NCBI RefSeq assembly: GCF_011602485.2
Contig: NZ_CP050022.2
Location: forward strand, 6,654,001 to 6,718,000
DNA: 64,000 nucleotides
Origin: Bradyrhizobium sp. 1(2017)
GTDB lineage: Bacteria > Pseudomonadota > Alphaproteobacteria > Rhizobiales > Xanthobacteraceae
Direction of reading: 5' to 3'
Each line of letters begins with the position of its first letter. The first letter of the stretch is position 1. Below, in pieces: positions 4,639 to 44,975 of this stretch. The notes beneath the pieces were generated by a model, which saw only the letters and a program-made list of their open reading frames with translations, made no database searches and was not told where the DNA came from. A program made the position numbers and the translations under genes.

Positions 4639-4676
4639 TGCGAATGTCCCTTTATGTACGCGTTACATTTTCATCA

Positions 4677-6101: not shown

Positions 6102-6809
6102 TCAGAACGGTGCCACGGCGTCATAGATCCGATGTCCCCATCCAGGCTGCTGCACGTCAGACAGATTTCCGCGACCGCCATAGGACACGCGCGCCTCTGC
6201 AATCTTGTCGTAGGAGATCGTGTTGGCCCGCGAGATGTCGCGCGGGCGCACGATGCCGCCGACGTTGAGCACGCGCATCTCGGTGTTGACGCGAAATTCC
6301 TGCGAGCCGCTGATCATCATGTTGCCGTTCGGCAGGACGTCGGTGACGATGGCCGCAATGGACAGCTTGATGTCCTCGGTGCGATCGATCTGGCCGTTGC
6401 CCTTGATCTGGGTGTTGGTGCTGAGATTGGCGTTGGCCGTACCCGCGTCTTTCCATCCGGCCACGTCCATCAGCCAGTCGAGCCCGAACTTGATCTGCGA
6501 ATCGCGCGAGCGGTCGGTCTTGTTGTCGAGCTTGGCCTTGTCCTGCATCGAGATGATCACCGTCACGACGTCGCCGGTGCGCCGGGCGCGGGGATCGCGG
6601 TAGAGATCGGTGCCGTCGTCCCAGGTCGAGCGATAGCTGACGGGCGTGCGCATGCGCGGCGTCACCGGAATTGGGTCGGCCTGCGTCCGCAGGCCGCTGC
6701 CGACCGGCGACAGCAGCGGGCCGGTCAGGACTTCGGCCGGATCGTGGTAGCAACCGGCCAAGGGCACCGATGCGAGCGCGAGCGAGAGGATGAGGATCGG
6801 CTTCTTCAT
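6102..6809 (-). CDS. flgH: Flagellar L-ring lipoprotein FlgH
   Basis: FlgH forms the outer-membrane bushing of the rod. The 235-residue product has a lipoprotein signal peptide with lipobox LAGC, giving a lipidated Cys20, and contains the conserved RARRTGDVVTVIISMQDKA and NGNMMISGSQEFRVN regions of FlgH. The start directly follows the motE stop codon, so translation is probably coupled. Length is typical. Confidence 0.96.
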   Translation of the reverse strand: MKKPILILSLALASVPLAGCYHDPAEVLTGPLLSPVGSGLRTQADPIPVTPRMRTPVSYRSTWDDGTDLYRDPRARRTGDVVTVIISMQDKAKLDNKTDRSRDSQIKFGLDWLMDVAGWKDAGTANANLSTNTQIKGNGQIDRTEDIKLSIAAIVTDVLPNGNMMISGSQEFRVNTEMRVLNVGGIVRPRDISRANTISYDKIAEARVSYGGRGNLSDVQQPGWGHRIYDAVAPF

Positions 6810-8743: not shown

Positions 8744-9216
8744 GACCCGTCCACGACCTTGACCGTGCCGTCCGGCTGAACGACACCCCTGATGATCACG
8801 CCGGTGTCGGTGTTTCGCACCGGGATAAGCGCGCCGGCCGCGCCCGATTGCATTGCCGCGCCGTATGTGACGATGGACAGGCCGCTGTCTTCCACCACGA
8901 CCTTGACCATGGCGCCGCGGGCGACCGTCCAGGGATCCTCCACCGCATTGGTCGGGATCGGCTGGCCCGGCAGCAGCGTGCGGCGGGCCATGCGGCCAAC
9001 CAGGACCTGACGTCCTTCGATGAACATGGCAACGCCGAGCAGATTCGGCGCGAAGCCGCGCTCGATGATCATGTCGTCCCGGATCAGCTCGCCCGCACGG
9101 ATCGAGACGGCCGGCACGGGAAGCCGCTTCTCCTCGGCCGCAGCAAGGCGCGCCGAGACGAGAACCAGCAGCACGGCGGCCAACCCGCGCATGATCAGGC
9201 CCACCCTGTTCAACAT
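8740..9216 (-). CDS. flgA: P-ring assembly chaperone FlgA
   Basis: FlgA helps FlgI assemble in the periplasm. From the ATG at 9216 the product is 158 residues with a signal peptide ending SARLAAA-EE, followed by the SAF-like segment (VPAVSIRAGELIRDDMI, then GRMARRTLLPGQPI) that is diagnostic for FlgA. The open frame extends 17 codons further up into flgG, but those residues are not signal-like, so the downstream Met is preferred. It starts 13 bases after flgG and overlaps flgI by four bases. Confidence 0.92.
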   Translation of the reverse strand: MLNRVGLIMRGLAAVLLVLVSARLAAAEEKRLPVPAVSIRAGELIRDDMIIERGFAPNLLGVAMFIEGRQVLVGRMARRTLLPGQPIPTNAVEDPWTVARGAMVKVVVEDSGLSIVTYGAAMQSGAAGALIPVRNTDTGVIIRGVVQPDGTVKVVDGS

Positions 9217-9229
9217 CGAGACACCGGAA

Positions 9230-10027
9230 CTAGCGCATGCCCTTCGAGACGGTCGAGGCCATTTCATCCGAGGCCTGGATGACCTTGGCGTTCATTTCGT
9301 AGGCGCGCTGAGCCGAGATCAACTCGGTGATCTCCTTGACGGGATCGACGTTGGAGGCCTCGAGATAGCGTTGGTTGATCTTGCCGTAGCCGGCATCGCC
9401 GGGCAGCCCGACGACCGGCGTGCCGGAGGCCGTGGTCTCGCGGTAGAGATTGCTGCCGAGCGGCTCGAGGCCCGCTTCGTTGGCGAAATTGGCGAGGCTG
9501 AGCTGGCCGATCTGGCGCGGATTGATTTCGGTGTCCAGCTTGGCGAACATCTGCCCGGTCTGGTTGACCGTGACCTCGACCGTTCCCTGCGGCACCGTGA
9601 TCGCGGGGTCGAGCAAATAGCCGTCGATCGTGACGAGCTGACCGTTGGCGTTGGTGTTGAACGAGCCTGCGCGAGTGTATTGCACCTCGTTGTTGGGGCC
9701 GAGCACCTGGAACCAACCACGGCCGTTGATCGCGAGGTCGTAGGGGTTGCCGGTCTGCGTCAGCGCGCCCTGGATGTGCAGCTTGCGGATCGCCGCCGAC
9801 TTGACGCCGAGGCCCAGGTTGCTGCCTTCCGGGATCGGCGAGGAGCCGTTGACGTTCGCAACGCCCTGCATGCGGTCCATCTGGTAGAACAGATCGGTGA
9901 ATTCCGCACGCGCCCGCTTGTACGAGGTCGAGTTGATGTTGGCGATGTTGTTGGCGATGACCTCGACGTTGGTCTGCTGGGCGTTCATGCCCGTGGCCGC
10001 AATGGCGAGCGATTTCACGATCGTCAC
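9230..10027 (-). CDS. flgG: Flagellar distal rod protein FlgG
   Basis: FlgG builds the distal rod. The 265-residue product carries the N-terminal rod motif ([19 protein letters not shown]), the FlgG-type sequence [20 protein letters not shown], and a C-terminal D0 helix ([20 protein letters not shown]). Length is typical. It lies 9 bases downstream of fliE in one run with flgB and flgC. Confidence 0.97.
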
Positions 10028-10036
10028 TCCCTCAGA

Positions 10037-10366
10037 TCAAATCGACATCCGAACGACTTCTTGATAGGCCTGCACGACCTTGTCGCGAACCGCGACTGCC
10101 GTCTGCAAGGCCTGCTCGGCCGACATCAGCGCCTCCACGACGCGCCGCGTCGATTCCTTGCCCTGCATCGCCGAGATCGACGCCGCCTCGCCCGCCTTCA
10201 GCGTTCCGATCGCGTCCGTCGTCACCTGTTTCATCACCGATTCGAATCCGACCTCGTCGCCGGTCTGGATCGCGGTCGTCGCCGCCGGCGAGATCGCCTG
10301 GGTCTCGGCCGCGCGGCTTGCTGCCTGTCCGGCGGAGACCGCCGTGGATGAGATTGCCTCAAGCAT
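10037..10366 (-). CDS. fliE: Hook-basal body junction protein FliE
   Basis: FliE links the MS ring to the proximal rod. The 109-residue product has a disordered N-terminus and the characteristic C-terminal helices (MQGKESTRRVVEALMSAEQA, then VVQAYQEVVRMSI). It lies two bases after flgC and just before flgG, the usual rod-gene order in rhizobia. Confidence 0.95.
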   Translation of the reverse strand: MLEAISSTAVSAGQAASRAAETQAISPAATTAIQTGDEVGFESVMKQVTTDAIGTLKAGEAASISAMQGKESTRRVVEALMSAEQALQTAVAVRDKVVQAYQEVVRMSI

Positions 10367-10368
10367 TG

Positions 10369-10785
10369 TCAGCTCCTCAGGAGATCGATGGTCATGCCCA
10401 GCATCGACCTGACCTGTTTCACGACCTGGAGATTGGCCTCATAGGACCGGTTGACCTCGCGCATATCGGCCATCTCGATCATCATGTTGACGTTCGGCAG
10501 CTTGACGTAGCCGGCCTTGTCGGCGGCGGGATGCCCCGGATCGTACTCGACGCGATATGGCGTGGTGTCGACCCCGATCTCCTTGACCTTCGCAAGCTGC
10601 GCGCCCGAGGCACGGTCCATCGCGGCATCGAAGGTGATGGTCTTGCGCTGATACGGATCGGCTCCGGCGGTGCGCCCGGTCGAGGTCGCGTTCGCGAGGT
10701 TCTCCGAGACGATGCGCATGCGGGTCGATTGGGCTTCGAGCCCGGAGCTTGCGACCGTCAATGACGACTGTAGGGAGTCCAGCAT
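10369..10785 (-). CDS. flgC: Flagellar proximal rod protein FlgC
   Basis: A 138-residue rod subunit with the N-terminal motif ([20 protein letters not shown]) and C-terminal helix ([20 protein letters not shown]) of FlgC. It is 11 bases downstream of flgB and two bases upstream of fliE. Confidence 0.97.
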
Positions 10786-10796
10786 ATCAATTCACC

Positions 10797-11177
10797 TCAG
10801 GCCTTTGCGCTCGACAGGACCATGCGGTGAAACGAGCGCACGATCGCCGAATTCATCGAATAGTCGCGACTGACGTCGCTGCCCTTGATCATCTCCTGCT
10901 CGAGGCTGACGGAATTACCGGAGTGAACTACCTCCCAGCTGTCCTTCTTGGCGGTCTTGCGCGTATCTGTCTCGGCCGCGGATAGCTGCATGTGCGACGG
11001 CGACGTCGTCGCGAGCCTGACCGGCATGCCATCGAGCACCTTGTTGAAGGGCTCGACGTCGCGCGCCTTGAAGCCAGGCGTGTTGGCGTTGGCGACGTTG
11101 GTGGCGATGGTCGACTGGCGGAGCTCGAGGTACCGAGCCTGCGACGATGCCAGTTCAAAGAGATAAAGCGGTCCCAC
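10797..11177 (-). CDS. flgB: Flagellar proximal rod protein FlgB
   Basis: A 126-residue rod subunit with the motif STIATNVANANTPGFKARDV and a C-terminal helix typical of FlgB. The start is a GTG at 11177; the only upstream purine-rich signal is a weak GGGGCG. The 87-base gap to flhB on the same strand is the largest in this part of the cluster, so a new promoter may lie there. Confidence 0.94.
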   Translation of the reverse strand: MGPLYLFELASSQARYLELRQSTIATNVANANTPGFKARDVEPFNKVLDGMPVRLATTSPSHMQLSAAETDTRKTAKKDSWEVVHSGNSVSLEQEMIKGSDVSRDYSMNSAIVRSFHRMVLSSAKA

Positions 11178-31417: not shown

Positions 31418-32932
31418 ATGACGGTTGCGATCGAGATGGGGCAGACCACGGCAGGCGCCGCGGCGGCCATGGACCTCGAGGAACTGCTGGCGACCCGTCT
31501 CCTGGTGCAGGGCAATTCGGGCTCCGGCAAGTCGCATCTGTTGCGGCGGCTGCTGGAGCAGAGCGCGCCCTGGGTGCAGCAGGCCATCATCGACCCCGAA
31601 GGCGATTTCGTCACGTTGGCCGAGCGCTTCGGCCATCTGGTGATCGAGGCCGAGGATCACACCGAGCGCGGCCTTCAGGTCGCCGGCGAGCGCGCGCGGC
31701 TGCATCGCGTCTCCACCGTGCTCAATCTCGAAGGCCTCGATGCCGAGAACCAGATGCGCCGTGCCGCCGCGTTCCTCGGCGGGATGTTCGACGTCGACCG
31801 CGACCATTGGTACCCGATGCTGGTGGTGGTCGACGAGGCGCAGCTGTTTGCGCCGGCGGTGGCCGGCGAAGTCTCGGACGAGGCGCGCAAACTCTCGCTC
31901 GGCGCGATGACCAATCTGATGTGCCGCGGCCGCAAGCGCGGCCTCGCCGGCGTCATCGCGACGCAGCGGCTGGCGAAGCTCGCCAAGAACGTCGCGGCGG
32001 AAGCCTCCAACTTCCTGATGGGCCGCACCTTCCTCGACATCGACATGGCGCGCGCCGCCGATCTGCTCGGCATGGAGCGGCGGCAGGCCGAGGCCTTTCG
32101 CGACCTCGAGCGTGGGCAATTCATGGCGCTGGGACCTGCGCTCTCGCGCCGTCCGCTCCGCTTGAACATCGGCCCGACCGACACGAGCCCGCGCAATTCG
32201 ACGCCGCGGCTGATGCCGCTGCCGGAAGCGACCCTGGAGGATGCGCGCGCCGTGATCCTGGCCGCGCCCCCGCCCGATGCCAGCCGGCCGCAGCGAAGGC
32301 CGGCGCCTGACCTGCTCGAGCAACTGCGCGCCGCAAGGGCGGCCGCCACGCCGGAGATCCGGCCCGAGATCGCCGAGGTGCCGGTGAGCGCGGAAGAGCT
32401 GGCGGAGCGGCGCGAGCGCGTGGACCGCACCCTTCGCGCCGTGCTGGCGGAGCCCGATGCCGGCTTCCGCGCCATCGGCGTGCTCTATCAGGAGTTCGTG
32501 GTCCGCTGCCGCATCGAGGGACTCGGCGCCGCGGTGCCCGATCTCAACGAATTCCGCCGCATGCTGACGCATGCGCGGGCCGGGCTCGGCGCGGAGCTTG
32601 CGGAAGACGACGCCTGGCAGGACGTGTCGCTGCGCGCCTCGATCCTGCCCGACGACATGCAGGGCGTGTTCATGATGATCGCGCGCGCGGCCAAGGAAGG
32701 CTGGCCCTGCCCCGGGGACGCCGCGATCGCGCGCGCCTATGGCTCGCATTCGCTGCGCCGCGCGCAGCGGCTGCTCGGCTATATGGAGGAGCAGGGCCTG
32801 ATCGTCGTCCAGCTCGACGGCGGCGGACGCCGGATCGTGACGCTGGTGGAGCTCGCCTGGGCGACGGCGCCGGGCGATCCCAATGGCGACGATTTGCCGG
32901 CAGAACCTGCACAGAGCGCCGCGGCGCTCTGA
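31418..32932 (+). CDS. HerA/FtsK-like ATPase with C-terminal winged-helix region
   Basis: A 504-residue P-loop ATPase of the HerA (DUF87) superfamily. The P-loop is GNSGSGKS at 32-39, Walker B is MLVVVDEAQ with Asp139-Glu140, and the region RGRKRGLAGVIATQRLAKLA resembles the sensor/arginine segment of HerA. Residues about 270-400 are a charged linker; about 425-490 look like a winged helix (GDAAIARAYGSHSLRRAQRL). HerA enzymes usually pump DNA with a nuclease such as NurA; no nuclease gene is adjacent. It may act with the CxxCxxCC protein upstream. Confidence 0.85.
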   Translation: MTVAIEMGQTTAGAAAAMDLEELLATRLLVQGNSGSGKSHLLRRLLEQSAPWVQQAIIDPEGDFVTLAERFGHLVIEAEDHTERGLQVAGERARLHRVSTVLNLEGLDAENQMRRAAAFLGGMFDVDRDHWYPMLVVVDEAQLFAPAVAGEVSDEARKLSLGAMTNLMCRGRKRGLAGVIATQRLAKLAKNVAAEASNFLMGRTFLDIDMARAADLLGMERRQAEAFRDLERGQFMALGPALSRRPLRLNIGPTDTSPRNSTPRLMPLPEATLEDARAVILAAPPPDASRPQRRPAPDLLEQLRAARAAATPEIRPEIAEVPVSAEELAERRERVDRTLRAVLAEPDAGFRAIGVLYQEFVVRCRIEGLGAAVPDLNEFRRMLTHARAGLGAELAEDDAWQDVSLRASILPDDMQGVFMMIARAAKEGWPCPGDAAIARAYGSHSLRRAQRLLGYMEEQGLIVVQLDGGGRRIVTLVELAWATAPGDPNGDDLPAEPAQSAAAL

Positions 32933-32959: not shown

Positions 32960-34072
32960 TCAGGCCGCCTCGAAACTGCGGGCTGCATCGGGCGAACGGC
33001 GCGCCTCGTCCGCAAACATGCGGCGATAGAGCAGGACCGAGACGAGCCAGGCCACCGCGAACAGCGCGATCACGACGAAGCCGACATTCGCCAGCGACTC
33101 GTTGAGGCCGTCGACCACCGACCAGATGCCGCCGGACAGGCCGAGCCGCTCCGCGATCAGGCCGAACGCCTCGACGCCACCGATGAACAGCGCAACCGCG
33201 ACGGAGGCCCCCGTGATCGTGAGATTGTACCAGAGCTTGCGCAGGGGATCGACGAAGGCCCAGCGATAGGCGCTGACCATCAGCGCGGAGTCGGCGGTAT
33301 CGACCAGCGCCATGCCGGCCGCGAACAGTGCCGGAAAGACCAGCACGTCGGCGAGTGCAGCACCGCGCGCGGCTTCGCCGGCGGAGATGCTGAGCAGGCC
33401 GATCTCGGTCGCGGTGTCGAAGCCGAGCCCGAACAGCAATCCGAGCGGATACATATGCCAGGGCTTCGTCACCAGGCGGAACATCGGGCCAAGCAGCCGC
33501 GCCAGGAATCCGCGCTTGGCGAGCAGCGCATCGAGACCTGCGGCGTCGTGAACGCCCTGCGCGCGCGCCAAGCGGAACGTCCGCCACAAGCCGGCGAAGA
33601 TGGCGAGATTGATGGCCGCGATCACCAGCAGGAACAGCGCCGAGACCGACGTACCGATCAGCCCGCCGATCTCCTTGAGCAGGCTGTCGCCGCCAAGGCT
33701 CACGACGCCGAGCGCCAGCAGCATGGTCGCGACCACGACCACGGTGGAATGGCCGAGCGCGAAAAAGAGACCGACGCTGCGCGGCGCGCCGCCCGCCTGC
33801 ATCAGCTTGCGCACGACATTGTCGATGGCGGCGATGTGATCGGCATCGACGGCGTGGCGCAGGCCAAACACCCAGGCGAGCAGCGCGGTCGCCATCACCG
33901 TGGGACGATCGCCGAACGCCGCGAAGGCCCAGGCCCAGGCAGCGACATTGGCGGTGACGAGCCCGCCGAACAGCAACGCCACGCCGGGCTCGACCGCCCG
34001 CAAAGACCATCTCGTCAAGATCCCAATCCGTCCGTTGCACGCCCCGCCGCGCCACCGGTATGATATTTTCAT
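32960..34072 (-). CDS. Nickel/cobalt permease, NiCoT (HoxN/NixA) family
   Basis: A 370-residue inner-membrane protein with about eight membrane segments. The family signature RHAVDADHIAAIDN (HX4DH type) is complete, followed by LFFALGHSTVVV and GLLFGLGFDTATEIGLL. These proteins import Ni2+ or Co2+; the sequence alone does not decide which. The annotated ATG lies inside a palindrome (34059-34073), so the true start may be further downstream, for example at one of the TTG or GTG codons in the next 30. It is convergent with the HerA-like gene. Confidence 0.93.
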   Translation of the reverse strand: MKISYRWRGGACNGRIGILTRWSLRAVEPGVALLFGGLVTANVAAWAWAFAAFGDRPTVMATALLAWVFGLRHAVDADHIAAIDNVVRKLMQAGGAPRSVGLFFALGHSTVVVVATMLLALGVVSLGGDSLLKEIGGLIGTSVSALFLLVIAAINLAIFAGLWRTFRLARAQGVHDAAGLDALLAKRGFLARLLGPMFRLVTKPWHMYPLGLLFGLGFDTATEIGLLSISAGEAARGAALADVLVFPALFAAGMALVDTADSALMVSAYRWAFVDPLRKLWYNLTITGASVAVALFIGGVEAFGLIAERLGLSGGIWSVVDGLNESLANVGFVVIALFAVAWLVSVLLYRRMFADEARRSPDAARSFEAA

Positions 34073-34189: not shown

Positions 34190-34930
34190 CTACGCCGCCT
34201 CGGAACCACCCAGATAGGCATCGCGGATGCGGGGATCGTCCTTCAATGTCCGCGCCGGGCCTGACAGCACGATCTTGCCGGTCTGGAGCACATAGGCTTC
34301 GTGCGCGATCTCGAGCGCGAGGCTGGCATTCTGCTCGACCATGAACACCGAGACGCCCTCCTGGTTGATGGTACGGATCAGTTCCAGCACGCGATCGACA
34401 TAGAGCGGTGACAGGCCCATGGTCGGCTCGTCCATCACGATCATGCGGGGGCGGCTCATCAATGCGCGCGCCATCGCCACCATCTGCTGCTCGCCGCCGG
34501 AAAGCGAGCCGGCGCGCTGCGGCAGCCGCTGGCCGAGCTTCGGGAACAGCGTGAGCATCCTGTCGAGATCCTGCGCGACCGCGTCGCGGTCGTTACGCAC
34601 GAAGGCGCCCATCAGGATGTTCTCGCGGACGCTCATGTCGGCGAACAGCCGCCGCGCTTCCGGCACCGAGGCGATACCGCGGCGGACGATCTGCGGCGTG
34701 GTCAGCCCGATCAAGGAGACGCCATCGAACGTCACGTCACCGGAGCGCGGCTTCACCAAGCCCAGGATGATCTTCATCGTCGTCGACTTGCCGCTGGCAT
34801 TGCCGCCGAGCAGGCAGACGATGTGGCCGCGCCCGACCGCTATCGACAGGTCGAAATGCACCTGGGCCTGACCGTAGAAGGTATTGACGTTCGACAGCGC
34901 CAGCAGCGGTTCGGGAGAAAGGTTGGTCAT
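34190..34930 (-). CDS. livF: Branched-chain-type ABC importer ATPase, LivF-like
   Basis: A 246-residue ATPase with Walker A GGNASGKST (42-50), signature LSGGEQ (143-148) and Walker B RMIVMDEPT (Asp167-Glu168). Walker A carries Asn-Ala where most LivF have Asn-Gly-Ala. It overlaps livG by four bases and is the last gene of the minus-strand cluster starting at 42048. The name reflects family only; the substrate need not be an amino acid. Confidence 0.92.
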   Translation of the reverse strand: MTNLSPEPLLALSNVNTFYGQAQVHFDLSIAVGRGHIVCLLGGNASGKSTTMKIILGLVKPRSGDVTFDGVSLIGLTTPQIVRRGIASVPEARRLFADMSVRENILMGAFVRNDRDAVAQDLDRMLTLFPKLGQRLPQRAGSLSGGEQQMVAMARALMSRPRMIVMDEPTMGLSPLYVDRVLELIRTINQEGVSVFMVEQNASLALEIAHEAYVLQTGKIVLSGPARTLKDDPRIRDAYLGGSEAA

Positions 34931-35769
34931 GCCGCGCTCTCCTGCTTTGTCGCCAGCCCGTGGCCGAGATAGGCCTCGATCACCTTGGCATCTCTCCGTA
35001 CTTCTTCGCCCGGCCCTTCCGCGATCTTCTTGCCCTCGTCCATGACGATGACGCGATCGGAGAGGCGCATCACCATCTCCAGCTTGTGCTCGATCAGGAG
35101 GATGGTCAGCCCTTCCGCCTTCAGCTCGGCGACGAGCGCCTGCATCTCCGCGGTTTCGGTCGGATTCATGCCGGCGGTGGGCTCGTCCAGCAGCAGCAGA
35201 CGGGGCTTCAACGCCAGCGCACGGGCGATCTCGACACGGCGGCGGTTGGCATAGGACAGGCTATAGGCCGGCTGATCGATCCGCGGCAGCAGCCGCTCGC
35301 CGAAGCGGGCGAGGATGGCCCTCACCTCCTCGCGCAGCCGCTCCTCTTCAGCCTTGACGCTGCCGGGACGCAGCAGCGCGAGGCCCAATTCCAGCAGCGG
35401 ACCGATCACCGGCACGGCCGGCCTGACCGCGCGCAGTCGCGTATGCGCGCCGATCAGCACGTTGTCCATCACGCTGAGATTGCCGAAAACGCGGCCGAGC
35501 TGGAAGGTGCGTGCGATACCTTCGGCCGCGAGTCGTTCCGGCGACAGGCCCGTGATGTCCTCTCCCTCGAAGTGGACCACGCCGCCATCGGGCCGGTCGA
35601 GGCCGGTCACGAGGTTGAACAGCGTCGTCTTGCCGGCGCCGTTCGGGCCGATGATGCTGATGAGCTCGCCTTTGGAAAGGTCGAGATCGATGGCGTCGAC
35701 CGCGGTGAGGCCGCCGAAGCGGCGCGTCAAGCCGCGCAGGGACAGCATCGAGTTCAGCTGCTCCACCAT
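34927..35769 (-). CDS. livG: Branched-chain-type ABC importer ATPase, LivG-like
   Basis: A 280-residue ATPase with Walker A GPNGAGKT (41-48), the degenerate signature LSYANRR (171-177) that replaces LSGGQ in LivG proteins, and Walker B LLLLDEPTAGMNP. The ATG at 35769 shares one base with the stop of the permease gene (TGATG), so translation is coupled. A longer open frame running further upstream is out of the gene's family and covers permease DNA. Confidence 0.92.
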   Translation of the reverse strand: MVEQLNSMLSLRGLTRRFGGLTAVDAIDLDLSKGELISIIGPNGAGKTTLFNLVTGLDRPDGGVVHFEGEDITGLSPERLAAEGIARTFQLGRVFGNLSVMDNVLIGAHTRLRAVRPAVPVIGPLLELGLALLRPGSVKAEEERLREEVRAILARFGERLLPRIDQPAYSLSYANRRRVEIARALALKPRLLLLDEPTAGMNPTETAEMQALVAELKAEGLTILLIEHKLEMVMRLSDRVIVMDEGKKIAEGPGEEVRRDAKVIEAYLGHGLATKQESAA

Positions 35770-37592
35770 CAGATCGTCCCCAGCAGGCCCTGCGGCCTGA
35801 ACCGCACCAGCAGCAACAGCACGATGCCGTAGATCAGGATGCGGTACTCCGCCGCGATCCGGAAGACTTCCGGCAGGCCGACCAGCGCGACCGCTCCAAG
35901 GATGGCACCGACGACATTGCCGAGGCCGCCGAGGATGACGACCGTGAGCGCCAGGATGGATTGCTGCGTGTTGAAGGTCTCGTGGTTGATGTAGGAGTAA
36001 AGATGCGCGGCAATGCCGCCGCTGATGCCGGCGGCGAAGCCGCCGAAGATGAAGGCGAGCGACTTGTAACGGTTGAGGCTGAGGCCATAGGCGCGCGCGG
36101 CGGTATCGTCGTCGCGGATGGCGCGGAAGCTGCGGCCGAGATGCGAGGCCAGCAGACGTCCCTGGAGCAGGGCGAGCACGACCATCACCGCAAGGCTGAA
36201 CCAGTAGATCGACGTCGGACTGATCAGATCGTAGCCGAACAGCGACAGCGGCGGAATGCCGGAGATTCCAATCGGACCGCGTGTGACGCTTTCCCAATTC
36301 AGGATCACCAGCGCCACGATCTCGCCGATGGCCAGCGTTGCGATCGACACGTAATGCCCACGCAGGCGGAACGATGGCGAAATCAGAAGCGTGCCGAGTG
36401 CGGCGCTCATCAGGCCGCCGCCGATGATGGCAAGGCCGACGGGGACAGCCAATATCAGCGACAGCAACGCGGACGTGTAGGCGCCGATGGCGAGCAGCGC
36501 GGCATGACCGAGCGAAACCTGCCCCATCGTGCCCGCGACCAGCGTGAGACTCAGCGCGAGCATGCCGAGCAGCCAGGCGTTGATCAGGGTCTGGAGCACG
36601 TAGAACGACACCGGAAACAGCGGCAGGATCAAAAAGCCGGCGACGGCGACCAACAACGCCCAGCGCGGAATGTGCACCGGGCGGCTCGGTGCGATGAACG
36701 TGCCGGTGAGCGGCTCGGGCGGTGCCTGCCGCGCGCTGACGAACAGGCCGTTCGGCCGCAGCACGAGCACGACGACCAGGAGCAGGAAGGCGAACAAATT
36801 GCGGTAGCTGGTGCCGAGCACGGCGACGCCGTAGCTCTCGACCAATCCGAGCAACAGGCTGCCGATCACCGCCCCCGGCACGTTGCCGGCGCCGCCGACG
36901 ACTTCCGCGACGACGCCCTTGAGCGTCGCCTGAAGGCTCATCGCGGTGTCGATCTGGTTGTAGTACATGCCGACCAGCATGCCGGACACGCCGCCGAGCG
37001 CCGACGCGATGCCGAACACGGTCTGATTGACGCGGTTGACGTCGACGCCCATCTGCATGGCGGCGTCGCGATCCTGCGCGGTGGCACGCACGGCCCAGCC
37101 GAGCTTGGTGTAACGCAGGAACACGAACAGCAGCAGCGCGCTGCTGAGGCCGACACCCGCAATGAGCAGATCAAGCAGTCCGATCGTCCCGCCACCGACC
37201 TGGAAGCGGACATCCGGCAACTGGCTCGGAAGCGCCCGCGGATTGGGCGAGAAGGTCAGCATCACCAGCTGATCGAGCACGAAGCTGATGCCGATGGTCG
37301 CGAGCAGCGGCGCAATGCGAACGGAGTTCTGGAGCGGCCGCAGACCAAACCGCTCGATGATCAACCCGACGATCGCCGCAACGGCAGCGACCACAATGAT
37401 GGTGAGCGGGAGCGGCGTATGCAGCTGCACCACCGCGACCCAGCCGATATAGGCGCCGACGAGGTAGATCGAGCCTTGCGCAAAGTTGATCAGCCGGCTG
37501 ACGCCGAAGATCAGCGCGAGCCCGACCGCAACGAGGGCATAGACATTGCCGACGATCAGCCCGTTGATCGTGTAATCGAGCCAGGAAGACAA
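35769..37592 (-). CDS. Fused LivH-LivM-type ABC permease
   Basis: A 607-residue membrane protein in which a LivH-like half (about 1-290: [20 protein letters not shown], then the EAA-like [20 protein letters not shown]) is followed by a LivM-like half (about 310-607: [20 protein letters not shown], then [20 protein letters not shown]). In E. coli these are two proteins. The linker near residues 285-310 ([20 protein letters not shown]) is Pro-rich. The reading frame is uninterrupted, so this is a genuine fusion. The binding protein gene precedes it by 57 bases. Confidence 0.93.
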
Positions 37593-37649
37593 ACGTTGGT
37601 CCCCGCGTGGAAAGAAAGGCGGCCGGAGCGGCGCGCTCCGGCCATCATG

Positions 37650-38807
37650 TCAGGTCGGCTTGCCGTCCCAGAGCGCGAACTGCCCCTTGCGGACGACGAG
37701 CTCGGCGTTCATGGCGCCCTTGACCCGGCGGGTCGCGACGTCGAACGTCGCGGTGCCGAAGATGACGCTCGGAACGTCCTTGACCTTGGCGAAGGCGTCG
37801 CGGATCGCCTTGCGGTCGGTGCCGCCGATCTTCACCACGGCAGCCGCCATGTTCATCGCATCATAGGCGTAGGCGTTGAAAGCATCGGGCTCGAGCCCGT
37901 TGTATTTGCTCTTGAAGCCCGCAATGAATTTCTGCACCTCGGGCCGCGGGTCTTCCGGAAAGTAGCGCGTACCGACATGGACGTCCTCGACGGCCTCGCC
38001 GCCCAGCTCCAGAAATTTCGGCGAGTAGACCGAGCTTGCCGCGCAGATCACCTGCTTCAGCCCGACCTGCCGGGCCTGACGCGCGATCAGCGCGCCATCG
38101 GAATAATAGGAGATCAGGATCAGACCGTCCGGATTGGCGTCGCGCACGCGCACCAGCGTGGAGCGGAAGTCGCGCTCCTCCGCGATGTAGCCCTCGGTCA
38201 CCGCGATCTCGGCGCCGTATTCCTTGGCGGCCTTGACGAAATAGTCCCGGCTGGTGCGGCCCCAATCGGTGTTGAGGTGCAGCACCGCGAGCTTCTTCAG
38301 GCCGAGCCGCTTCACGGCATAGGACGCCAGCAGCGGTTGCTCGTCGGCCTGGCTCACGGACGTGCTCCACATGAAGTCGCCACCCTTGGTAAAATCGGGG
38401 TGCGAATTGGTGAAGCCGAACTGCACGAGGCCGCCGCGCTGATAGATCGGCGAGGCCGCCATCGAGGCCGGGCTCGAGAAATCGCCGAGCTCCATGACGA
38501 TGCGGGGATCGGATAGGAACTTTTGGGCGATCGCCACCGACTGGCGCGGGTCGCTCTGGCTGTCCTCGAACTGGTAGGCGAGCTTGCGGCCGCTGATGCC
38601 GCCGGCAGCCTGGATCTCGTCGAGTGCGAGATCGAAGCCCTGCTTCCACTGCGTGCCATACTGTGCATTCGGTCCCGTGAGGGGTCCGCTGACGCCGAGC
38701 AGGATCGGCTCGGAGGATTGCGCGAACGCGGCGCGCGAAAAGGCCGCGCCCGCCATCATCGCGCCGAAAGAGCCTTTGACCAGGGTACGGCGATCGATCT
38801 TGCTCAT
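37650..38807 (-). CDS. Periplasmic binding protein of a branched-chain-type ABC importer
   Basis: A 385-residue LivK-like binding protein (type I fold). The N-terminus DRRTLVKGSFGAMMAGAAF is a twin-arginine signal. Conserved family stretches include EPILLGVSGPLTGPNAQYGT and a C-terminal RKAIRDAFAKVKDVP. It would deliver the substrate to the fused permease encoded downstream. The ligand is unknown; clustering with a flavin monooxygenase suggests something other than amino acids. Confidence 0.92.
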   Translation of the reverse strand: MSKIDRRTLVKGSFGAMMAGAAFSRAAFAQSSEPILLGVSGPLTGPNAQYGTQWKQGFDLALDEIQAAGGISGRKLAYQFEDSQSDPRQSVAIAQKFLSDPRIVMELGDFSSPASMAASPIYQRGGLVQFGFTNSHPDFTKGGDFMWSTSVSQADEQPLLASYAVKRLGLKKLAVLHLNTDWGRTSRDYFVKAAKEYGAEIAVTEGYIAEERDFRSTLVRVRDANPDGLILISYYSDGALIARQARQVGLKQVICAASSVYSPKFLELGGEAVEDVHVGTRYFPEDPRPEVQKFIAGFKSKYNGLEPDAFNAYAYDAMNMAAAVVKIGGTDRKAIRDAFAKVKDVPSVIFGTATFDVATRRVKGAMNAELVVRKGQFALWDGKPT

Positions 38808-38878
38808 TTACCGCTCCATCCACTCAGCGTTGATACGGTCAGCGTTGATAACAGCAATTTCTGTGCCGGCCGGATTGC

Positions 38879-39457
38879 TCATTTCGAAGGCTCGCCGAGC
38901 GACAGCATCAGCCGGTTCGCCCAGTTGAAGAAGGAGGCGCCGTTGATGACGTCGACGATCTCGGCGTCGTCGAGCCCGGCCTGGCGCAGCTCCTGGATAT
39001 TGTCGGGACCGAACGCGATCGGCGTCTCGGCCAAAGCGACCGAGGCCTTGACCACCGCATTCCAGCGCTGGCCGAGATCGGCACCGACGCCTTCATCGAG
39101 CAGACGCTGCACGTCGTCGCGGCGCTTGGAATAGGTGCTGGCAAAGCGCGCATGCACCGAGGCGCAATAGATGCAGCCATTGTAGCGCGAGGTCGCGGCG
39201 GCCGCGAGCTCGCGCTCGGCGCGCGGCAAGCCATCGGCGACGTTGTAGAAAATGTCCTTGTCGGTCCTGGTGCGGGCTTCCAGCACGTCGGGGTCGCGCA
39301 CCAGCAGGCGGAAATATTCCGACTTGGCGCGGGCGCGATCGACGAGGCCGGCGAAATGCCGTTCGGTCAGCTCAGCCTCGGGCAGCGGATCGATCCACGA
39401 CACCCAGCCGAGCTCGTCCTGGGTGAAGACGACGGGTGGATTGACGGTGGCGCTCAT
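38879..39457 (-). CDS. AhpD-like alkylhydroperoxidase-domain protein (Avi_7169-type)
   Basis: A 192-residue protein with the carboxymuconolactone decarboxylase/AhpD fold and an intact redox motif Cys95-Ile-Tyr-Cys98 followed by His102 (NGCIYCASVH). I chose the ATG at 39457 because GAGGAG precedes it. It matches my memory of a family that always occurs with a luciferase-like monooxygenase and a second CMD protein, as here. A role in reducing a peroxide or disulfide intermediate is an inference. Confidence 0.85.
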   Translation of the reverse strand: MSATVNPPVVFTQDELGWVSWIDPLPEAELTERHFAGLVDRARAKSEYFRLLVRDPDVLEARTRTDKDIFYNVADGLPRAERELAAAATSRYNGCIYCASVHARFASTYSKRRDDVQRLLDEGVGADLGQRWNAVVKASVALAETPIAFGPDNIQELRQAGLDDAEIVDVINGASFFNWANRLMLSLGEPSK

Positions 39458-39470
39458 ATGCAGGCTCCTC

Positions 39471-40073
39471 TCATGCCTTCGCGGCGGCGAGCGTGCGCAA
39501 ACCGCTGACGACGCGCACCTGGAACGACAGAAACGCAACGAGTTGGGAGAAGGTGACGATGCCGGTGGTCGACCAGCCGGCAGCCAGCAGCGCCTTCATG
39601 TCCGCGGAGGCAGCATCGCGCGGACGAAAGACCAGGAGGTGCGCATGCTCGAGCACGGCCACGAGCCGGGCGCCGAGACCGGGCTTGCGCTCCGCGCTGA
39701 CGCGATAGATCAAACCGGCCTTGTTCTCGATCGACAACGGGCCGGCCGGAAAGGCACCGTAGGGGCCCGAGGTCTGGCCGCGCTCGATCTCGACCTGGAT
39801 GGCCTCGGCAAGCGCCGCTCCATCCGTCGTCGCGGCAAGCTTCTCGCGATAGAAGGAAGCGACCGGAGACTCGCCATGCAGCCCGGTCACGAAGGCCGCG
39901 ACCGCGACACGCTCGGCCAGCGAGAAATCGCTCGCATCGATCGGCTCGAACAAGGCGAGATAGCTCTTCTGCGCGTTCTCGCGCGCCTGAAGTCGGCGCG
40001 CGCGGATGGCGTCCAGAGCCGATCCCGGTTCGATCCCGGCGAGCGTGTCGATGATATCCTTGGTGCTCATCAT
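39471..40073 (-). CDS. CMD-domain protein lacking cysteines (Avi_7170-type)
   Basis: A 200-residue helical protein of the CMD family (SLAERVAVAAFVTGLHGESP, then SAERKPGLGARLVAVLEHAH). It contains no cysteine at all, so it cannot do the CxxC chemistry of its neighbour. Its gene lies 13 bases upstream of that neighbour and 34 bases after the monooxygenase. It may be a structural or substrate-binding partner in a mixed oligomer. GAGG precedes the start. Confidence 0.83.
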   Translation of the reverse strand: MMSTKDIIDTLAGIEPGSALDAIRARRLQARENAQKSYLALFEPIDASDFSLAERVAVAAFVTGLHGESPVASFYREKLAATTDGAALAEAIQVEIERGQTSGPYGAFPAGPLSIENKAGLIYRVSAERKPGLGARLVAVLEHAHLLVFRPRDAASADMKALLAAGWSTTGIVTFSQLVAFLSFQVRVVSGLRTLAAAKA

Positions 40074-40107
40074 TCAGCCTCGTGCAACGACATCCCGTTC
40101 ATTCCGA

Positions 40108-41142
40108 CTAGCCTGCCAACGCCACACCAGGTGCGGTCCGGATCCAGCCCAGTGCCGGCGCGACCTTGTCCGCGACCAGCTCGATCGAGCGCAGGGTATA
40201 GGGGTGCGGCGCGTCGACCGAATGGGCCTGGAACACCAGATCGGTCACCCGCTCCAGCGTGGCATCGGCACGGAGCGAAGCGATGACGCCGTCGGCCGCG
40301 CCGACATGGGTGTCGAACGCCGTGATCATCTCCTCCAGCGTCTCGCCGGGCCTGGCGTGACCGCCCTTGAGGAATTGCGGCAGCGCACGCCTTAGCCCGA
40401 TATCGGCAAGCCGCATCGCTTCGGCATGATCGTCGGCGACGAAGACGCTGCGCGAGGCCATGATGCGGGGCTCGCATCCCGGCGGGAGCGCTGCGAGATA
40501 GGCGTCGATGATCGGGTTCTGGATTTCGGCGAGTGTCGCACGCGGCGCCTCCTTGGCCCGCGGCTGCGTGCGTGACAGCAACAGGCCATCGCCCGCCTTG
40601 CCGGCCCGGGCGCCGCCCGCAACCGAGAATGTCGCCTGCCAGATGCGCTTGTCCAATTGCGGCCGTTGCGGATAGAGCGTGTCGCCGCCATCAAGAGGTT
40701 TGCCGACCAGCGCGGCGCGGACGACCTCCAGATTGCGGGCAAAAATCTCGTTGCGCTGGCTGCTGTCGAGGCCGAAGGCGGCGAAGGCCGACGGATTGCC
40801 GCCGGTGCCGACGCCGAGCTCGAAACGGCCGTTGCAGAGCAGGTCGAGCACCGCAGCATCCTCCGCCACCCGCACCGCATTCTCCAGCGGCAAGGTCACG
40901 ATGCCCGTGCCGAGGCGGATGCGCGAGGTCTGCGCGGCAACGTAGCCGAGGAAGGCGAAGGGCGACGGCAGGCCGCCTTCGCGCTCATGGAAATGATGCT
41001 GTGCGATCCACGCGGAATCCAGTCCCGCTTTCTCTGCGCGCACGATCTGCTCGGCCGCGAAGCGATATCGCTCGGCGGGAGGCGCCTCGTCGAGGAGGCG
41101 CGTGAAGAAGCCCAGTCGTTTCAGGTTTGCAAAGCGTTTCAT
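40108..41142 (-). CDS. Luciferase-like FMN-dependent monooxygenase (KPN_01858-type)
   Basis: A 344-residue protein of the bacterial luciferase-like fold, probably using FMNH2 and O2 supplied by a separate reductase. Motifs include the start KRLGFFTRLLDEAP, the strand-helix AGLDSAWIAQHHFHEREGGL, GTGIVTLPLENAVRVAEDAA and GRFELGVGTGGNPSAFAAFG. Relatives remove sulfonates or cleave C-N and C-S bonds, and a family with this neighbourhood is known but uncharacterised. It stands between the MetQ-like and CMD genes on one strand. Confidence 0.88.
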   Translation of the reverse strand: MKRFANLKRLGFFTRLLDEAPPAERYRFAAEQIVRAEKAGLDSAWIAQHHFHEREGGLPSPFAFLGYVAAQTSRIRLGTGIVTLPLENAVRVAEDAAVLDLLCNGRFELGVGTGGNPSAFAAFGLDSSQRNEIFARNLEVVRAALVGKPLDGGDTLYPQRPQLDKRIWQATFSVAGGARAGKAGDGLLLSRTQPRAKEAPRATLAEIQNPIIDAYLAALPPGCEPRIMASRSVFVADDHAEAMRLADIGLRRALPQFLKGGHARPGETLEEMITAFDTHVGAADGVIASLRADATLERVTDLVFQAHSVDAPHPYTLRSIELVADKVAPALGWIRTAPGVALAG

Positions 41143-41265
41143 ACGACCCCTGTCGGGCGAGGATGGGCCCCGATGATGTCGGTTGCCGCAGGTCCGGACA
41201 AGCGGGCATTGCGCAAGGCTGCCCGCCGGGATCGCCCTGCACTGGAGCTTGCCTGGGCAGATTGC

Positions 41266-42048
41266 CTACCAGCTCGGCAGCACCGCGCCCTTGAACTTGG
41301 TCAGGACGAACTCCTTGACCTCCGGCGTGTGGTAGCTGCTCACGAGGGTCTTGACCCAGGGCTTGTCCTTGTCGGCGGCACGAACGGCGATCAGGTTGAC
41401 GTACGGGCCTTTCGGGTCCTCGCGCAGGATCGGATCCTTGACGGGGTCGAGGCCGGCCTGGGTCGCATAATTGGTGTTGATCGCGGCAGCATCGACATCG
41501 TCGAGCGCGCGCGGCGCCTGCGCCGCATCGACCTCGATGAATTTCAGCTTCTTGGAATTCTCGGTGATGTCGAGCACCGTCGGCTTGAAGCCGGTGCCGT
41601 CCTTCAGCTTGATCACGCCCTTGTCACGCAGCAGCAGCAGCACGCGTCCGCCATTGGTCGGATCATTGGGGATCGAGACCTTGCCGCCCTCGGGGATATC
41701 GGCGAAAGCCTTGTGCTTCTTCGAATAGACGCCGATCGGGAAGTTCACGGTGAGCGCAACGGCCTCGATCTTGTAGCCGCGGTCGGCCTTCTGGTTGTCG
41801 AGGTAAGGTTGGTTCTGGAACGAATTGGCCTGGATTTCGCCGGCATCGAGCGCGGCGTTCGGAACGACATAGTCGGAAAACTCGATCAATTGGATGTCGA
41901 GCCCCTGCTTGGCGGCGATCGGCTTCACCGCTTCCAGGATCTGCGCGTGCGGTCCCGGCGTCACGCCGATCTTGATGGTCTCGGCACTCGCGACGGCGGA
42001 CCAGGCAGCGAGCACGGTTGAGAGAATCAGGTGGAGGCGAAACGACAT
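41266..42048 (-). CDS. MetQ/NlpA-like substrate-binding protein
   Basis: A 260-residue type II binding protein with signal peptide (cleavage near AVASA-ETIKIG) and family motifs IKIGVTPGPHAQILEAVKPI, VNFPIGVYSKKHKAFADIPE and NDPTNGGRVLLLL. There is no lipobox Cys, unlike E. coli MetQ. The ATG at 42048 has GGAG ahead of it; an ATG four codons upstream overlaps that signal. No metN or metI gene is adjacent, yet it heads the monooxygenase-liv cluster, so it may feed another transporter or be an alternate receptor. Confidence 0.9.
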   Translation of the reverse strand: MSFRLHLILSTVLAAWSAVASAETIKIGVTPGPHAQILEAVKPIAAKQGLDIQLIEFSDYVVPNAALDAGEIQANSFQNQPYLDNQKADRGYKIEAVALTVNFPIGVYSKKHKAFADIPEGGKVSIPNDPTNGGRVLLLLRDKGVIKLKDGTGFKPTVLDITENSKKLKFIEVDAAQAPRALDDVDAAAINTNYATQAGLDPVKDPILREDPKGPYVNLIAVRAADKDKPWVKTLVSSYHTPEVKEFVLTKFKGAVLPSW

Positions 42049-42211
42049 CTTGGTCTCCATAGGCCTTCGGCAATGATGGAACCGTATTCGCTTCTCTGCG
42101 GTGCGAAATCAATGAAATGGAAATCCATAATCGCCGCCTGCGGCGGGCGCACTTTCTCCATTCGGCACCAAACAGGAAACGAATTCACAGGGCGACGGTG
42201 CCATGCGCCGG

Positions 42212-42322: not shown

Positions 42323-42880
42323 TCAGACCACGGATACGCCTTGGCTGGTCCGGCCCGACAACGTCGCCTGCCGCGCGGCGTAGGCTGACGCCGCGGCCGA
42401 TGCCGGTGAATAATGCGCGAAAGATTCTGCGAGCTCCTCGGCCACCTCAGTGAGTTCCTTCATGACCGTGGCGCTGTTCGTTGCCTGACCGCCGGAGAAA
42501 TGACGGACCTCGAACGAGATACCATTGGGAAGATCGACATGGATCTTGTCGACCCCGACCGTATCATGCGCGTCGTCGTTCTCCGCGCGATCGACGCTGG
42601 ACGGCGGATGTCCCGACGTATCCTGGCTCGCCAATCTCTGCACGAAGTCCTCGATGGACTTGAGCATGCCACTGTCCAGGCCGCCGCTACCGAAGTGGAC
42701 GATACCGATCGACATGCCATTCGGCAGATTGACCTTGACCTCGTCGTAAGGCGCGCCGTCATTGATCAGGGATGCGAAGGTCGAGATGCCGGTTTGCGAG
42801 CCCGCTGATTTCGCCTGGCCGGCGGACGAAGGCGAACTCGCCGCGCTTCCCCCGATGCTGCTCATGCCGTTGACGCTCAT
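42323..42880 (-). CDS. Unknown protein with two LPNG repeats
   Basis: From the ATG at 42880 (GGAG eight bases upstream) the product is 185 residues. The first 40 are Ser/Gly/Ala-rich without a signal peptide. Then come two similar units: APYDEVKVNLPNGMSIGIVH with following F-GSGG, and VGVDKIHVDLPNGISFEVRH with following F-SGGQ, at about residues 43-67 and 106-130, separated by a helical or acidic linker. The C-terminal 50 residues are helical and Ala-rich. I do not recognise a family. The Ser-rich N-terminus would fit a type III or flagellar secretion signal, which is a guess. Confidence 0.72.
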   Translation of the reverse strand: MSVNGMSSIGGSAASSPSSAGQAKSAGSQTGISTFASLINDGAPYDEVKVNLPNGMSIGIVHFGSGGLDSGMLKSIEDFVQRLASQDTSGHPPSSVDRAENDDAHDTVGVDKIHVDLPNGISFEVRHFSGGQATNSATVMKELTEVAEELAESFAHYSPASAAASAYAARQATLSGRTSQGVSVV

Positions 42881-43187
42881 GCAAACACTCCACTCCATTG
42901 CAAATGCACGTTCTGCGTGCAATGCGCATGCCAGCTGATGGGGTCATTGCCATCAAGGACTTACTGCGAATCCCCGATGACTGCCGTGTCGCACCGGCAA
43001 TTGTGTCCCGGCAGAAGCTGCCCACCTTGACCGCGCCGACGACGGCCCCGATCGCACGGCCTGGCCGCACGCACCTCGCCATTTCGTCGCACGGCTTTGC
43101 CGCTTTGTGTCCATTGCCGCCTCGCCCGAGATGAAACATGATGGCGCGCGACTGGCGACGCGCTTTCTTTGAGCTGGAGGACGACCG
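42881..43187. other. Divergent promoter region, 42.9-43.2 kb
   Basis: It separates the LPNG-repeat gene (minus) from a binding-protein gene (plus). The ribosome site GGAGGACGACCG of the latter lies at its right end. No further element is clear. Confidence 0.5.
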
Positions 43188-44975
43188 ATGAACGAAAACG
43201 AAGTCCGTGGCCTGATCGCGGAAGTGAAGCAAGGCACGCTGTCGCGGCGCTCGTTCATCCAGAAAGTTGCCGCGATCGGGATCGCAGCGCCGATCGCGAG
43301 TCAGATCCTGGCCTGGCACGACGTCGCCATGGCCGACGCCAGACTCCCATACAAGCCGTCGAAGGCCGGCGGCGGCGGCCCGCTCAAGGTCCTGCTCTGG
43401 CAGGCCCCAACCTTGCTCAATCCGCATTTCGCGATCGGCACGAAGGACCAGATCGCCTCGCGCGTCTTCTTCGAGCCGCTCGCCGGCTGGGACAAGGACG
43501 GCAATCTCATCCCCTGCCTTGCCGCGGAGACTCCGACCAAGGCAAATGGCGGCATTGCGGCGGACGGTATGAGCGTGATCTGGAAGCTCAAGCAGGGCGT
43601 CAAGTGGCATGACGGCAAACCCTTCACCGCCGACGACGTCGTCTTCACCTGGCAATACGCCGCAGATCTCGCGACCGCGGCCTATACCACGGGATCGTAC
43701 AAGGACATCAAGGTCGAGAAGATCGACGACCACGCCGTCAAGGTGACCTTCAAGGCGCCGACGCCGTTCTGGGCCGATCCGTTCGTCGGCTCGGTCGGCC
43801 AGATCCTGCCGAAGCATCATTTCGGCGACTATGCCGGCGCCAAGTCGCGCGAGGCGCCGGCCAATCTGAAGCCGGTCGGCACCGGCCCCTATAAATTCGT
43901 CGAGTTCAAGCCGGGGGACCTCATCCGCGCCGAACGCAATCCCGACTACCATATCAAGAACCAGCCGCATTTCGACACGCTCGAGATGAAGGGTGGCGGT
44001 GATGCGGTGTCTGCGGCGCGCGCGGTGCTGCAAACCGGCGAATATGACTTTGCCTGGAACATGCAGGTGGAGGAGGAGGTCCTCAAGCGCATGGAGGCGA
44101 GCGGCAAGGGCAAGCTCGACGTCACGCCGTCGGGCAATGTCGAGTTCATCATCCTCAACACCACCGACCCCTGGACCGACGTCGATGGCGAGCGGTCGAG
44201 CGTCAAGACCAAGCACCCGACCCTGTCCGATCCGGCCGTGCGCAGCGCGATCAACCTCCTGATCGATCGCGACTCGATCCAGAAATTCATCTACGGCCGC
44301 GGCGGCGTCGCAACCGCAAGCTTCGTCAACGCGCCAAAGCAGTTCAAGTCGCCCAAGCTGAAATACGCCTTCGACGTCGACAAGGCCAACAAGATCCTCG
44401 ACGAGGCCGGCTGGAAGAAGGGCGCGGACGGCATCCGCGAGAAGGACGGCAAGAAGCTCAAATACGTCTTCCAGACCTCGACCAACGCCCCGCGCCAGAA
44501 GACCCAGGCCATCATCAAGCAGGCCTGCGAAAAGGCCGGCATCGACATCGAGATCAAGTCGGTCACCGCGTCGGTGTTCTTCTCCTCCGACGTCGGCAAT
44601 CCCGACACCTACTCGAAATTCTATGCCGACATGGAGATGTACAACACCACGCAGCCGCAGCCCGATCCGGAGCGCTTCCTGAACCAATGCGTCTCCTGGG
44701 AGATCGCCACCAAGGACAACAAATGGCTGGGCCGCAACATCTCGCGCTATTCCGATCCCGAAGCCGACAAGGCCTACAAGGCCGCGCAGAACGAGCTCGA
44801 TCCGGTCAAGCGCGCCGCGCTGCTGATCAAGGTCGACGAGACCTTCTGCGACGCACACGTGTTCCTGCCGCTGCTCTCGCGCAACATCGTCAACGCCGGC
44901 ATCAACAGCCTCATGGTCGATATCTCGGGCTGGGACACCATCACGTGGAATCTCGCGAGCTGGCACCGGAGCTGA
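43188..44975 (+). CDS. Peptide/nickel-type ABC substrate-binding protein, orphan
   Basis: A 595-residue family-5 solute-binding protein. The N-terminus holds a twin-arginine motif (SRRSFIQK, residues about 19-26) and hydrophobic stretch, so it is exported folded by Tat. Family motifs include VFFEPLAGWDKDGNLIPCLA, KQGVKWHDGKPFTADDVVFT and LSDPAVRSAINLLIDRDSIQ. A perfect ribosome site precedes the ATG. No permease or ATPase genes are next to it, so the transporter partner is elsewhere. The ligand is unknown (peptide, sugar or metal chelate). Confidence 0.92.
   Translation: MNENEVRGLIAEVKQGTLSRRSFIQKVAAIGIAAPIASQILAWHDVAMADARLPYKPSKAGGGGPLKVLLWQAPTLLNPHFAIGTKDQIASRVFFEPLAGWDKDGNLIPCLAAETPTKANGGIAADGMSVIWKLKQGVKWHDGKPFTADDVVFTWQYAADLATAAYTTGSYKDIKVEKIDDHAVKVTFKAPTPFWADPFVGSVGQILPKHHFGDYAGAKSREAPANLKPVGTGPYKFVEFKPGDLIRAERNPDYHIKNQPHFDTLEMKGGGDAVSAARAVLQTGEYDFAWNMQVEEEVLKRMEASGKGKLDVTPSGNVEFIILNTTDPWTDVDGERSSVKTKHPTLSDPAVRSAINLLIDRDSIQKFIYGRGGVATASFVNAPKQFKSPKLKYAFDVDKANKILDEAGWKKGADGIREKDGKKLKYVFQTSTNAPRQKTQAIIKQACEKAGIDIEIKSVTASVFFSSDVGNPDTYSKFYADMEMYNTTQPQPDPERFLNQCVSWEIATKDNKWLGRNISRYSDPEADKAYKAAQNELDPVKRAALLIKVDETFCDAHVFLPLLSRNIVNAGINSLMVDISGWDTITWNLASWHRS

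Follow-up and report, generated by a model that had tools for sequence, protein, structure and literature searches.

The Eight-Gene Cluster

The stretch of DNA analysed here, referred to as the window, covers 64,000 nt of the Bradyrhizobium sp. 1(2017) genome, which was scanned as a single contig of 7.86 Mb, and contains a gene cluster that couples a Liv-type ATP-binding cassette (ABC) importer and an orphan MetQ-like binding protein to an enzyme trio formed by a luciferase-like monooxygenase (LLM), a CMD protein, and an AhpD-type protein. The minus strand carries all eight genes described by an earlier note made from the sequence alone, and their order is the one stated there. Families were assigned by scans against curated cut-offs (TIGR models, in bits) and by Pfam scans. 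The first gene encodes the MetQ/NlpA-family binding protein (41266..42060; TIGR00363, 265 bits, cut-off 228.85) and is followed by the flavin mononucleotide (FMN)-dependent LLM of the KPN_01858 family (40108..41142; TIGR04027, 547 bits vs. 412.9), the cysteine-free, AhpD-like CMD of the Avi_7170 family (39471..40073; TIGR04029, 234 bits vs. 100.75), and the AhpD-type protein of the Avi_7169 family, which carries an E-X11-CXXC-X3-H motif (38879..39457; TIGR04030, 309 bits vs. 233.15). These three adjacent genes thus all exceed the curated cut-offs of their families. The importer is composed of a LivK-like binding protein of a distinct subfamily with a twin-arginine translocation (Tat)-type signal (37650..38807; PF13458; motifs GDFSS, GFTNSHP, TDWG, and SVYSPKF), a fused LivH-LivM permease with two PF02653 stretches (35769..37592), and the LivG-type (34927..35769) and LivF-type (34190..34930) ATPases, both recognised by family scans.

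The couplings noted earlier between these genes are real: the LivHM and LivG frames overlap by 1 nt and those of LivG and LivF by 4 nt, and gaps of 34 and 13 nt separate LLM from CMD and CMD from AhpD, respectively. The spacing between MetQ and LLM is looser (123 nt). The metQ start previously placed at 42048 is an internal ATG, and the frame is also open from a longer start at 42060. A candidate hairpin in the MetQ-LLM gap was no better than shuffled sequences (z 0.18) and was rejected, as was a riboswitch, since the three Rfam matches at E ≤ 1 all fell far under the gathering scores and none was plausible.

Conservation of the Cluster

Scanning genomes with an alignment of LLM sequences yielded 558 confirmed stretches, the best 80 of which correspond to 57 Bradyrhizobium-type and 23 other loci; because only these 80 were taken, the locus set leans to near relatives, and among them the nearest named relatives of the LLM belong to Bradyrhizobium. 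All eight genes are kept in order in 49 of the 57 Bradyrhizobium-type loci, with median gaps of 138, 38, 33, 64, 58, 3, and 0 nt along the cluster. The eight incomplete loci comprise one truncated at a contig end (L076), two that lack MetQ and are likewise truncated (L058 and L094), two without MetQ (L088 and L102), and three retaining only the LLM (L098, L100, and L101). In the last of these, the LLM (82% identical) lies behind another Dpp-type importer (4374-11059), without CMD and AhpD. Moreover, the LLM was found at E ≤ 1e-70 in 17 genomes from a draw of 397 Pseudomonadota, 8 of them Bradyrhizobium, and the TIGR04027 cut-off was reached in 5 genomes of a 119-genome family draw.

Upstream of metQ, the alignment of 51 upstream regions contains a near-invariant block on the minus strand (TATGGATTTCCATTTCATTGATT; 42084..42129) that seems to be promoter-like: TTGATT and GAATAC, separated by 17 nt, are exact in 45 of the 51 regions, and all 51 comply when GAA[TG]A[CG] is allowed. 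A second conserved block in the same alignment (ATTCGTTTCC...CGAATGGAGAA; 42154..42184, minus strand) could be a regulator site.

The Enzyme Trio

The association of a monooxygenase with CMD proteins had been described in the earlier note as a recurring but uncharacterised trio, and it does correspond to the NCBIfam families TIGR04027, TIGR04029, and TIGR04030, which are listed there only as hypothetical equivalogs and occur in Alpha-, Beta-, and Gammaproteobacteria as well as in actinomycete records. The KPN_01854-01858 / Avi_7169-7170 neighbourhood (TIGR04027-04030) contains the same LLM-CMD-AhpD trio, in the order seen in annotated plasmid loci. However, the operon of the window lacks the TIGR04028 binding protein and the Dpp-type permeases of that neighbourhood. 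The trio neighbourhood is already known, although uncharacterised, and the Liv importer together with the orphan MetQ is the departure of the window.

The LLM has a solved relative, 8k74_A (396 bits), and the SsuD and SfnG models are absent from the 25 best of the 29 families listed for it. A flavin reductase partner had been envisaged for this enzyme; the genome encodes nine PF01613 proteins, none of them within the window, and FMNH2 must therefore come from elsewhere. In another alphaproteobacterial family, a 51% identical LLM relative (L177 / L197) contains one in-frame TAG and has no CMD or AhpD match nearby.

E-X11-CXXC-X3-H is the catalytic motif of AhpD and is intact in the AhpD-type protein of all 89 stretches compared. 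In contrast, its CMD partner lacks the catalytic Cys, since 89 of 90 homologous stretches (near-copies included) are devoid of cysteine and the lone Cys of the remaining one sits near the N-terminus. CMD has no Pfam match at E ≤ 0.001, and its AlphaFold2 model (predicted local distance difference test, pLDDT, 81; predicted template modelling score, pTM, 0.81) retrieves AhpD-family structures at the top of a structure search with probability 1.00, the best E-value being 0.0034 and none reaching E ≤ 0.001. Both proteins form a single open frame in Erwinia (L035), Klebsiella (L044), Pantoea (L046), and Azospirillum (L203 and L207), and they are annotated as one gene in the plasmid loci L035, L046, and L133-L136. 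Because of these fusions in several relatives, CMD and AhpD likely share one complex. The plasmid operons also differ in their additional genes. Thus, the Pantoea trio operons L046, L134, and L135 include an amidohydrolase (M20 in L046) and a VOC protein, the annotation of L133 shows just a short peptidase-dimerisation fragment in place of the amidohydrolase, the Erwinia locus L035 has the VOC protein without amidohydrolase, and L136 has neither.

Interchange of Importers Beside the Trio

In 16 of the 23 non-Bradyrhizobium-type loci, the trio is accompanied by a complete Dpp-type importer whose binding protein is TIGR04028-like, and L124, on a short contig, contains a partial one. The combination of Dpp-type importer and trio is also found in the annotated plasmid loci L033, L034, L035, L037, L045, L046, and L133-L137. 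The trio lacks a close Dpp set in L031 and L032, and in L036 just a DppC-like stretch (68% identical) precedes the LLM. No Dpp, Liv, or MetQ genes were found within the surrounding DNA examined in L106, L108, and L126, and L108 is also devoid of CMD and AhpD. In Variovorax, the trio is associated with the same Liv cassette as in the window in L118, and with an orphan MetQ, plus a distant Dpp-type set upstream, in L115 and L127. In both of the latter loci, a different family-5 protein is encoded immediately after the trio-linked MetQ.

In a tree built from concatenated LLM and AhpD sequences (29 rows, 200 bootstraps), the Liv-bearing L118 nests inside Comamonadaceae having other importers, and the Liv label requires two changes, with one change in 0 of the 200 bootstrap trees. 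The simplest reading of this tree is that the pairing of Liv and trio would have arisen twice, separately; a single old pairing followed by several losses would cost more changes and is less simple. Both the conserved gene order and this repeated pairing uphold the earlier view that importer and trio belong together. As for other genes, an all-against-all BLAST comparison covered 38 trio or LLM loci. Once the core, further importer genes, and frames that overlap or run antisense are set aside, a VOC cluster (3 loci) is the only one of the 60 largest to cross genera clearly. In Ensifer, the neighbour clusters reflect synteny; four of the proteins in them resemble polysaccharide genes or lack a Pfam match.

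These pairings bear on whether the trio could serve mainly in detoxification or peroxide defence, with AhpD as a peroxidase acting alongside the flavin enzyme and the importers merely hitch-hiking. The catalytic motif preserved in 89/89 AhpD stretches would suit such a role, as would the OsmC gene located inside the Liv cassette of the Variovorax loci L118 and L204. Nevertheless, an importer is unexpected for a defence system, and the trio occurs with importers of several types, Liv most simply having joined it twice, while the spacing is tight in 49 loci, all of which make this role very improbable.

The Liv Cassette and Alternative Oxygenases

The importer of the window has its permease, ATPase, and binding-protein families in common with E. 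coli LivKHMGF. However, its permeases are fused and its parts fall far under the equivalog or subfamily cut-offs of the branched-chain importer (LivF, 216 vs. 441 bits; LivG, 243 vs. 362; LivH, 185 vs. 379; LivM, 175 vs. 366; binding protein, 137 vs. 477). In amino-acid binders of this class, the acid of the GDG stretch binds the alpha-ammonium group of the ligand. The ASSVYSPKF segment of the LivK-like protein aligns to the GDG of 3ip5, 3td9, and 4gnr and lacks this acid, and its TDWG aligns to the TPYG of 3ip5; the nearest solved relative, 3hut, has the same change at GDG. The LivK-like protein has one close copy in the genome, the next best being 33% identical. All 58 cluster copies contain its motifs, apart from one Ile/Met change and two variants that differ by a single letter, and L118 nearly matches them. 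Two adjacent arginines occur among the 12 N-terminal residues in 57 of the 59 copies aligned.

Seven plasmid records contain the LivK-type protein, and five of them were examined; further loci came from the genome sample. The motifs are carried by the LivK of L204-L207; of the two copies in L203, one has the motifs sought, whereas the other, the second, matches only SVYSPKF. In four of these loci, the Liv cassette occurs with CMD, AhpD, and an oxidoreductase dependent on flavin adenine dinucleotide (FAD) instead of the LLM. Thus, in Azospirillum (L203 and L207), the cassette is followed by the FAD oxidoreductase and the fused CMD-AhpD gene; Azospirillum also has two LivK-type proteins per one LivHM. 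In Burkholderia arboris (L206), CMD and AhpD, as separate stretches, and the FAD oxidoreductase lie ~3 kb from the cassette on the opposite strand. The order in L220 (FAD oxidoreductase, CMD, AhpD, LivK, LivHM, LivG, LivF) is that of the window with the LLM replaced. Moreover, in L219 the cassette adjoins a flavin reductase and lies ≤2 kb from another LLM, the trio being located elsewhere in that genome, and L205 has LivK with no LivHM, LivG, or LivF match beside it.

Since importers and oxygenases vary beside the CMD-AhpD pair, the AhpD-type step is pointed to as the shared feature. A tentative extension of this, which should be held as a speculation with the odds against it, is that CMD-AhpD could be the constant part of a modular machinery for C-S cleavage in which the oxygenase (LLM or FAD type) and the importer (Dpp, Liv, or MetQ class) would be interchangeable, the AhpD pair performing a dedicated second step on the oxygenated sulfur product.

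MetQ and Its Residue Change

The MetQ of the cluster belongs to the family of the MetNIQ methionine importer, above its cut-off; however, it is an orphan and carries FQN in place of FQH. No MetN or MetI gene is adjacent to it, and the only other PF03180 protein of the genome, 56% identical, is encoded in a metNIQ locus at 4.1 Mb. Both proteins lack a lipobox Cys, and the N-terminus of the cluster MetQ resembles a signal peptide. The FQH motif, whose His presumably has a role in the pocket, is found in 5/5 solved chains shown, two of which are the same E. coli protein. Asn occupies this position in 54 of 55 cluster MetQ rows (near-copies included), and His in the remaining one (L096), which comes from a complete cluster and is the deepest sampled cluster row on the MetQ tree. 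The other distinct MetQ rows have His in 33 cases, Thr in two (L153 and the LLM-linked L047), and Asn in three (the trio-linked L115 and L127, and L180, which sits in the Variovorax sulfur island L193, where no trio is present). Two changes to Asn are forced on the MetQ tree, with one change in 0/200 bootstraps and some rows on long branches. The change to FQN has therefore arisen at least twice, in two lineages, and the idea of MetQ as a plain methionine binder is weakened by it.

MetQ-class proteins dock on MetNI. The earlier note had assigned both binding proteins to one importer, and this was probably wrong, the MetQ more likely serving the MetNI encoded elsewhere in the genome. That MetQ and LivK might nonetheless serve the same LivHM importer, a sub-question otherwise compatible with an organosulfur substrate, is made conceivable by the promoter-like block that precedes metQ and the next seven genes and by the two LivK-type proteins per one LivHM in Azospirillum, but it seems quite unlikely considering that the two proteins belong to different families (PF03180 and PF13458), that MetNI is available elsewhere, and that the Liv genes remain at L088, L102, and L058, where MetQ is missing.

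Sulfur Genes in the Neighbourhood and Proposed Function

The earlier guess of an organosulfur substrate gains support from homologous loci, whereas the relationship to MetQ on which it had been founded is a weak argument, because the cluster MetQ lacks a His that MetNI-linked MetQs retain almost without exception. In the Variovorax locus L118, a DszC/SfnB-like gene, under both cut-offs, lies directly after AhpD, and it is the only one at E ≤ 1e-40 in a genome of 7.8 Mb, which corresponds to a chance of ~0.3% per given 20 kb. The trio of L126 is accompanied by an SsuA-like protein and by one of the seven DszC/SfnB-like genes of its genome, both under cut-off, that of L032 by a CysB-family regulator above cut-off, and the trio operon of L037 adjoins an annotated aliphatic-sulfonate ABC set. 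Near the Liv cassette of L204, SfnB and a DmoA-family LLM, both above cut-off, and TauD are found within 8 kb, and L203 contains an SsuA-family protein above cut-off, a cysteine dioxygenase, and a rhodanese. In the Variovorax island L193 (1-19501), the FQN MetQ is located among SfnB and SsuA genes above cut-off. This island is dense in organosulfur genes, including SfnB, DszC-like, SfnG-like, SsuA-family, MetNI-type, and MetQ genes. In total, sulfur genes occur near five of the eight non-Bradyrhizobium loci with a LivK-type protein, a count that is not a statistic because these loci were found by homology, not by a random draw, and without a random-locus control.

It is proposed, with a probability of a little under 60%, that the cluster imports one small organosulfur compound and oxidises it in a flavin-dependent manner as a nutrient, with CMD-AhpD acting on the product. 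The LivK-like protein would bind the substrate, and LivHM, LivG, and LivF would import it; the substrate would probably lack a free alpha-amino group, as in a thioether, a sulfone, or an N-acylated S-substituted amino acid. The orphan MetQ would bind a related compound and most likely feed the MetNI encoded elsewhere. The LLM, using FMNH2 from a reductase in trans, would oxygenate the compound after import, probably at a position adjoining the sulfur, which would break the C-S bond, and the partnership of the Cys-free CMD and the CXXC-bearing AhpD would reduce or resolve a peroxide, sulfenate, or thiol product.

Several observations weigh against this proposal. Beside the cluster of the window, no sulfur gene was recognised among the neighbours, only part of which were family-scanned, and DszC/SfnB-like genes at E ≤ 1e-40 are absent from its genome. 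In Variovorax G672, three DszC/SfnB-like genes lie far from the trio. L206, L219, and L220 are without a clear sulfur gene, and for L205 and L207 the SfnB-like, SsuA-like, or DmoA-like matches come from tblastn similarity alone. At ≤3 mismatches, the 23-nt promoter-like block occurs only once in the genome and so provides no regulon link. In MetQ, the His of L096 and the retained Asn of GPYVNLI (Ala in 6cvl) may allow methionine-like binding.

The substrate could instead be sulfur-free, for example a nitrogen-containing compound or an aromatic or amide source of carbon or nitrogen, in which case the sulfur neighbours would reflect plasmids and islands shared by catabolic and sulfur genes. Among the Dpp-type trio loci, where only part of the neighbours were scanned, no sulfur family turned up repeatedly, and the M20 amidohydrolase and the Glyoxalase_3 protein of Pantoea are compatible with amide chemistry; RraA-like genes in L219 and an MFS transporter in L220 point in the same direction. 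Against this stand genes of the SfnB, SsuA, TauD, CysB, or cysteine dioxygenase type found at several Liv, trio, or FQN-MetQ loci, as well as the DszC/SfnB-like gene that adjoins the trio of L118 and is the sole one at E ≤ 1e-40 in that genome, so that a sulfur-free substrate is considered rather unlikely.

Some known systems resemble the cluster in part. The SfnB/SfnG, Ssu, and DmoA sulfur-source systems likewise combine a flavin monooxygenase with an importer, and such genes lie near several relatives of the cluster; however, the LLM of the window belongs to TIGR04027. The yxe and ytm thioether operons of B. subtilis also join an importer to an LLM, and a further resemblance is the M20 amidohydrolase of the Pantoea trio locus L046. 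In contrast to them, the eight genes of the cluster include no acetyltransferase or deacetylase. The proposal gives three NCBIfam families of unknown function a concrete, testable role, and the His-to-Asn change of MetQ and the missing acid of LivK make both proteins directly screenable for ligands. If the substrate is, as suggested, a soil organosulfur compound, the cluster would be ecologically interesting in Bradyrhizobium and other nodule and soil bacteria.

Neighbouring Genes

A divergent gene on the plus strand (43188..44975) encodes a family-5 (Dpp-type) binding protein, which scores 96.6 bits with TIGR04028 (cut-off 468.5). It is a possible third binding protein of the cluster, its membership being uncertain. 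It lies upstream of and divergent from metQ, at a distance of 288-7299 nt, in 33 of the 49 complete loci. Between the cluster and this gene, an open reading frame of 199 amino acids (42323-42922, minus strand) has matches near several loci, not all. Downstream of livF, a NicO-type nickel/cobalt transporter (32960-34072, minus strand) is found at <500 nt in 32 of the 49 complete Bradyrhizobium loci, and a P-loop ATPase (31418-32932, plus strand), labelled as HerA-like by eye only, lies inside the flank of 37 of the 49.

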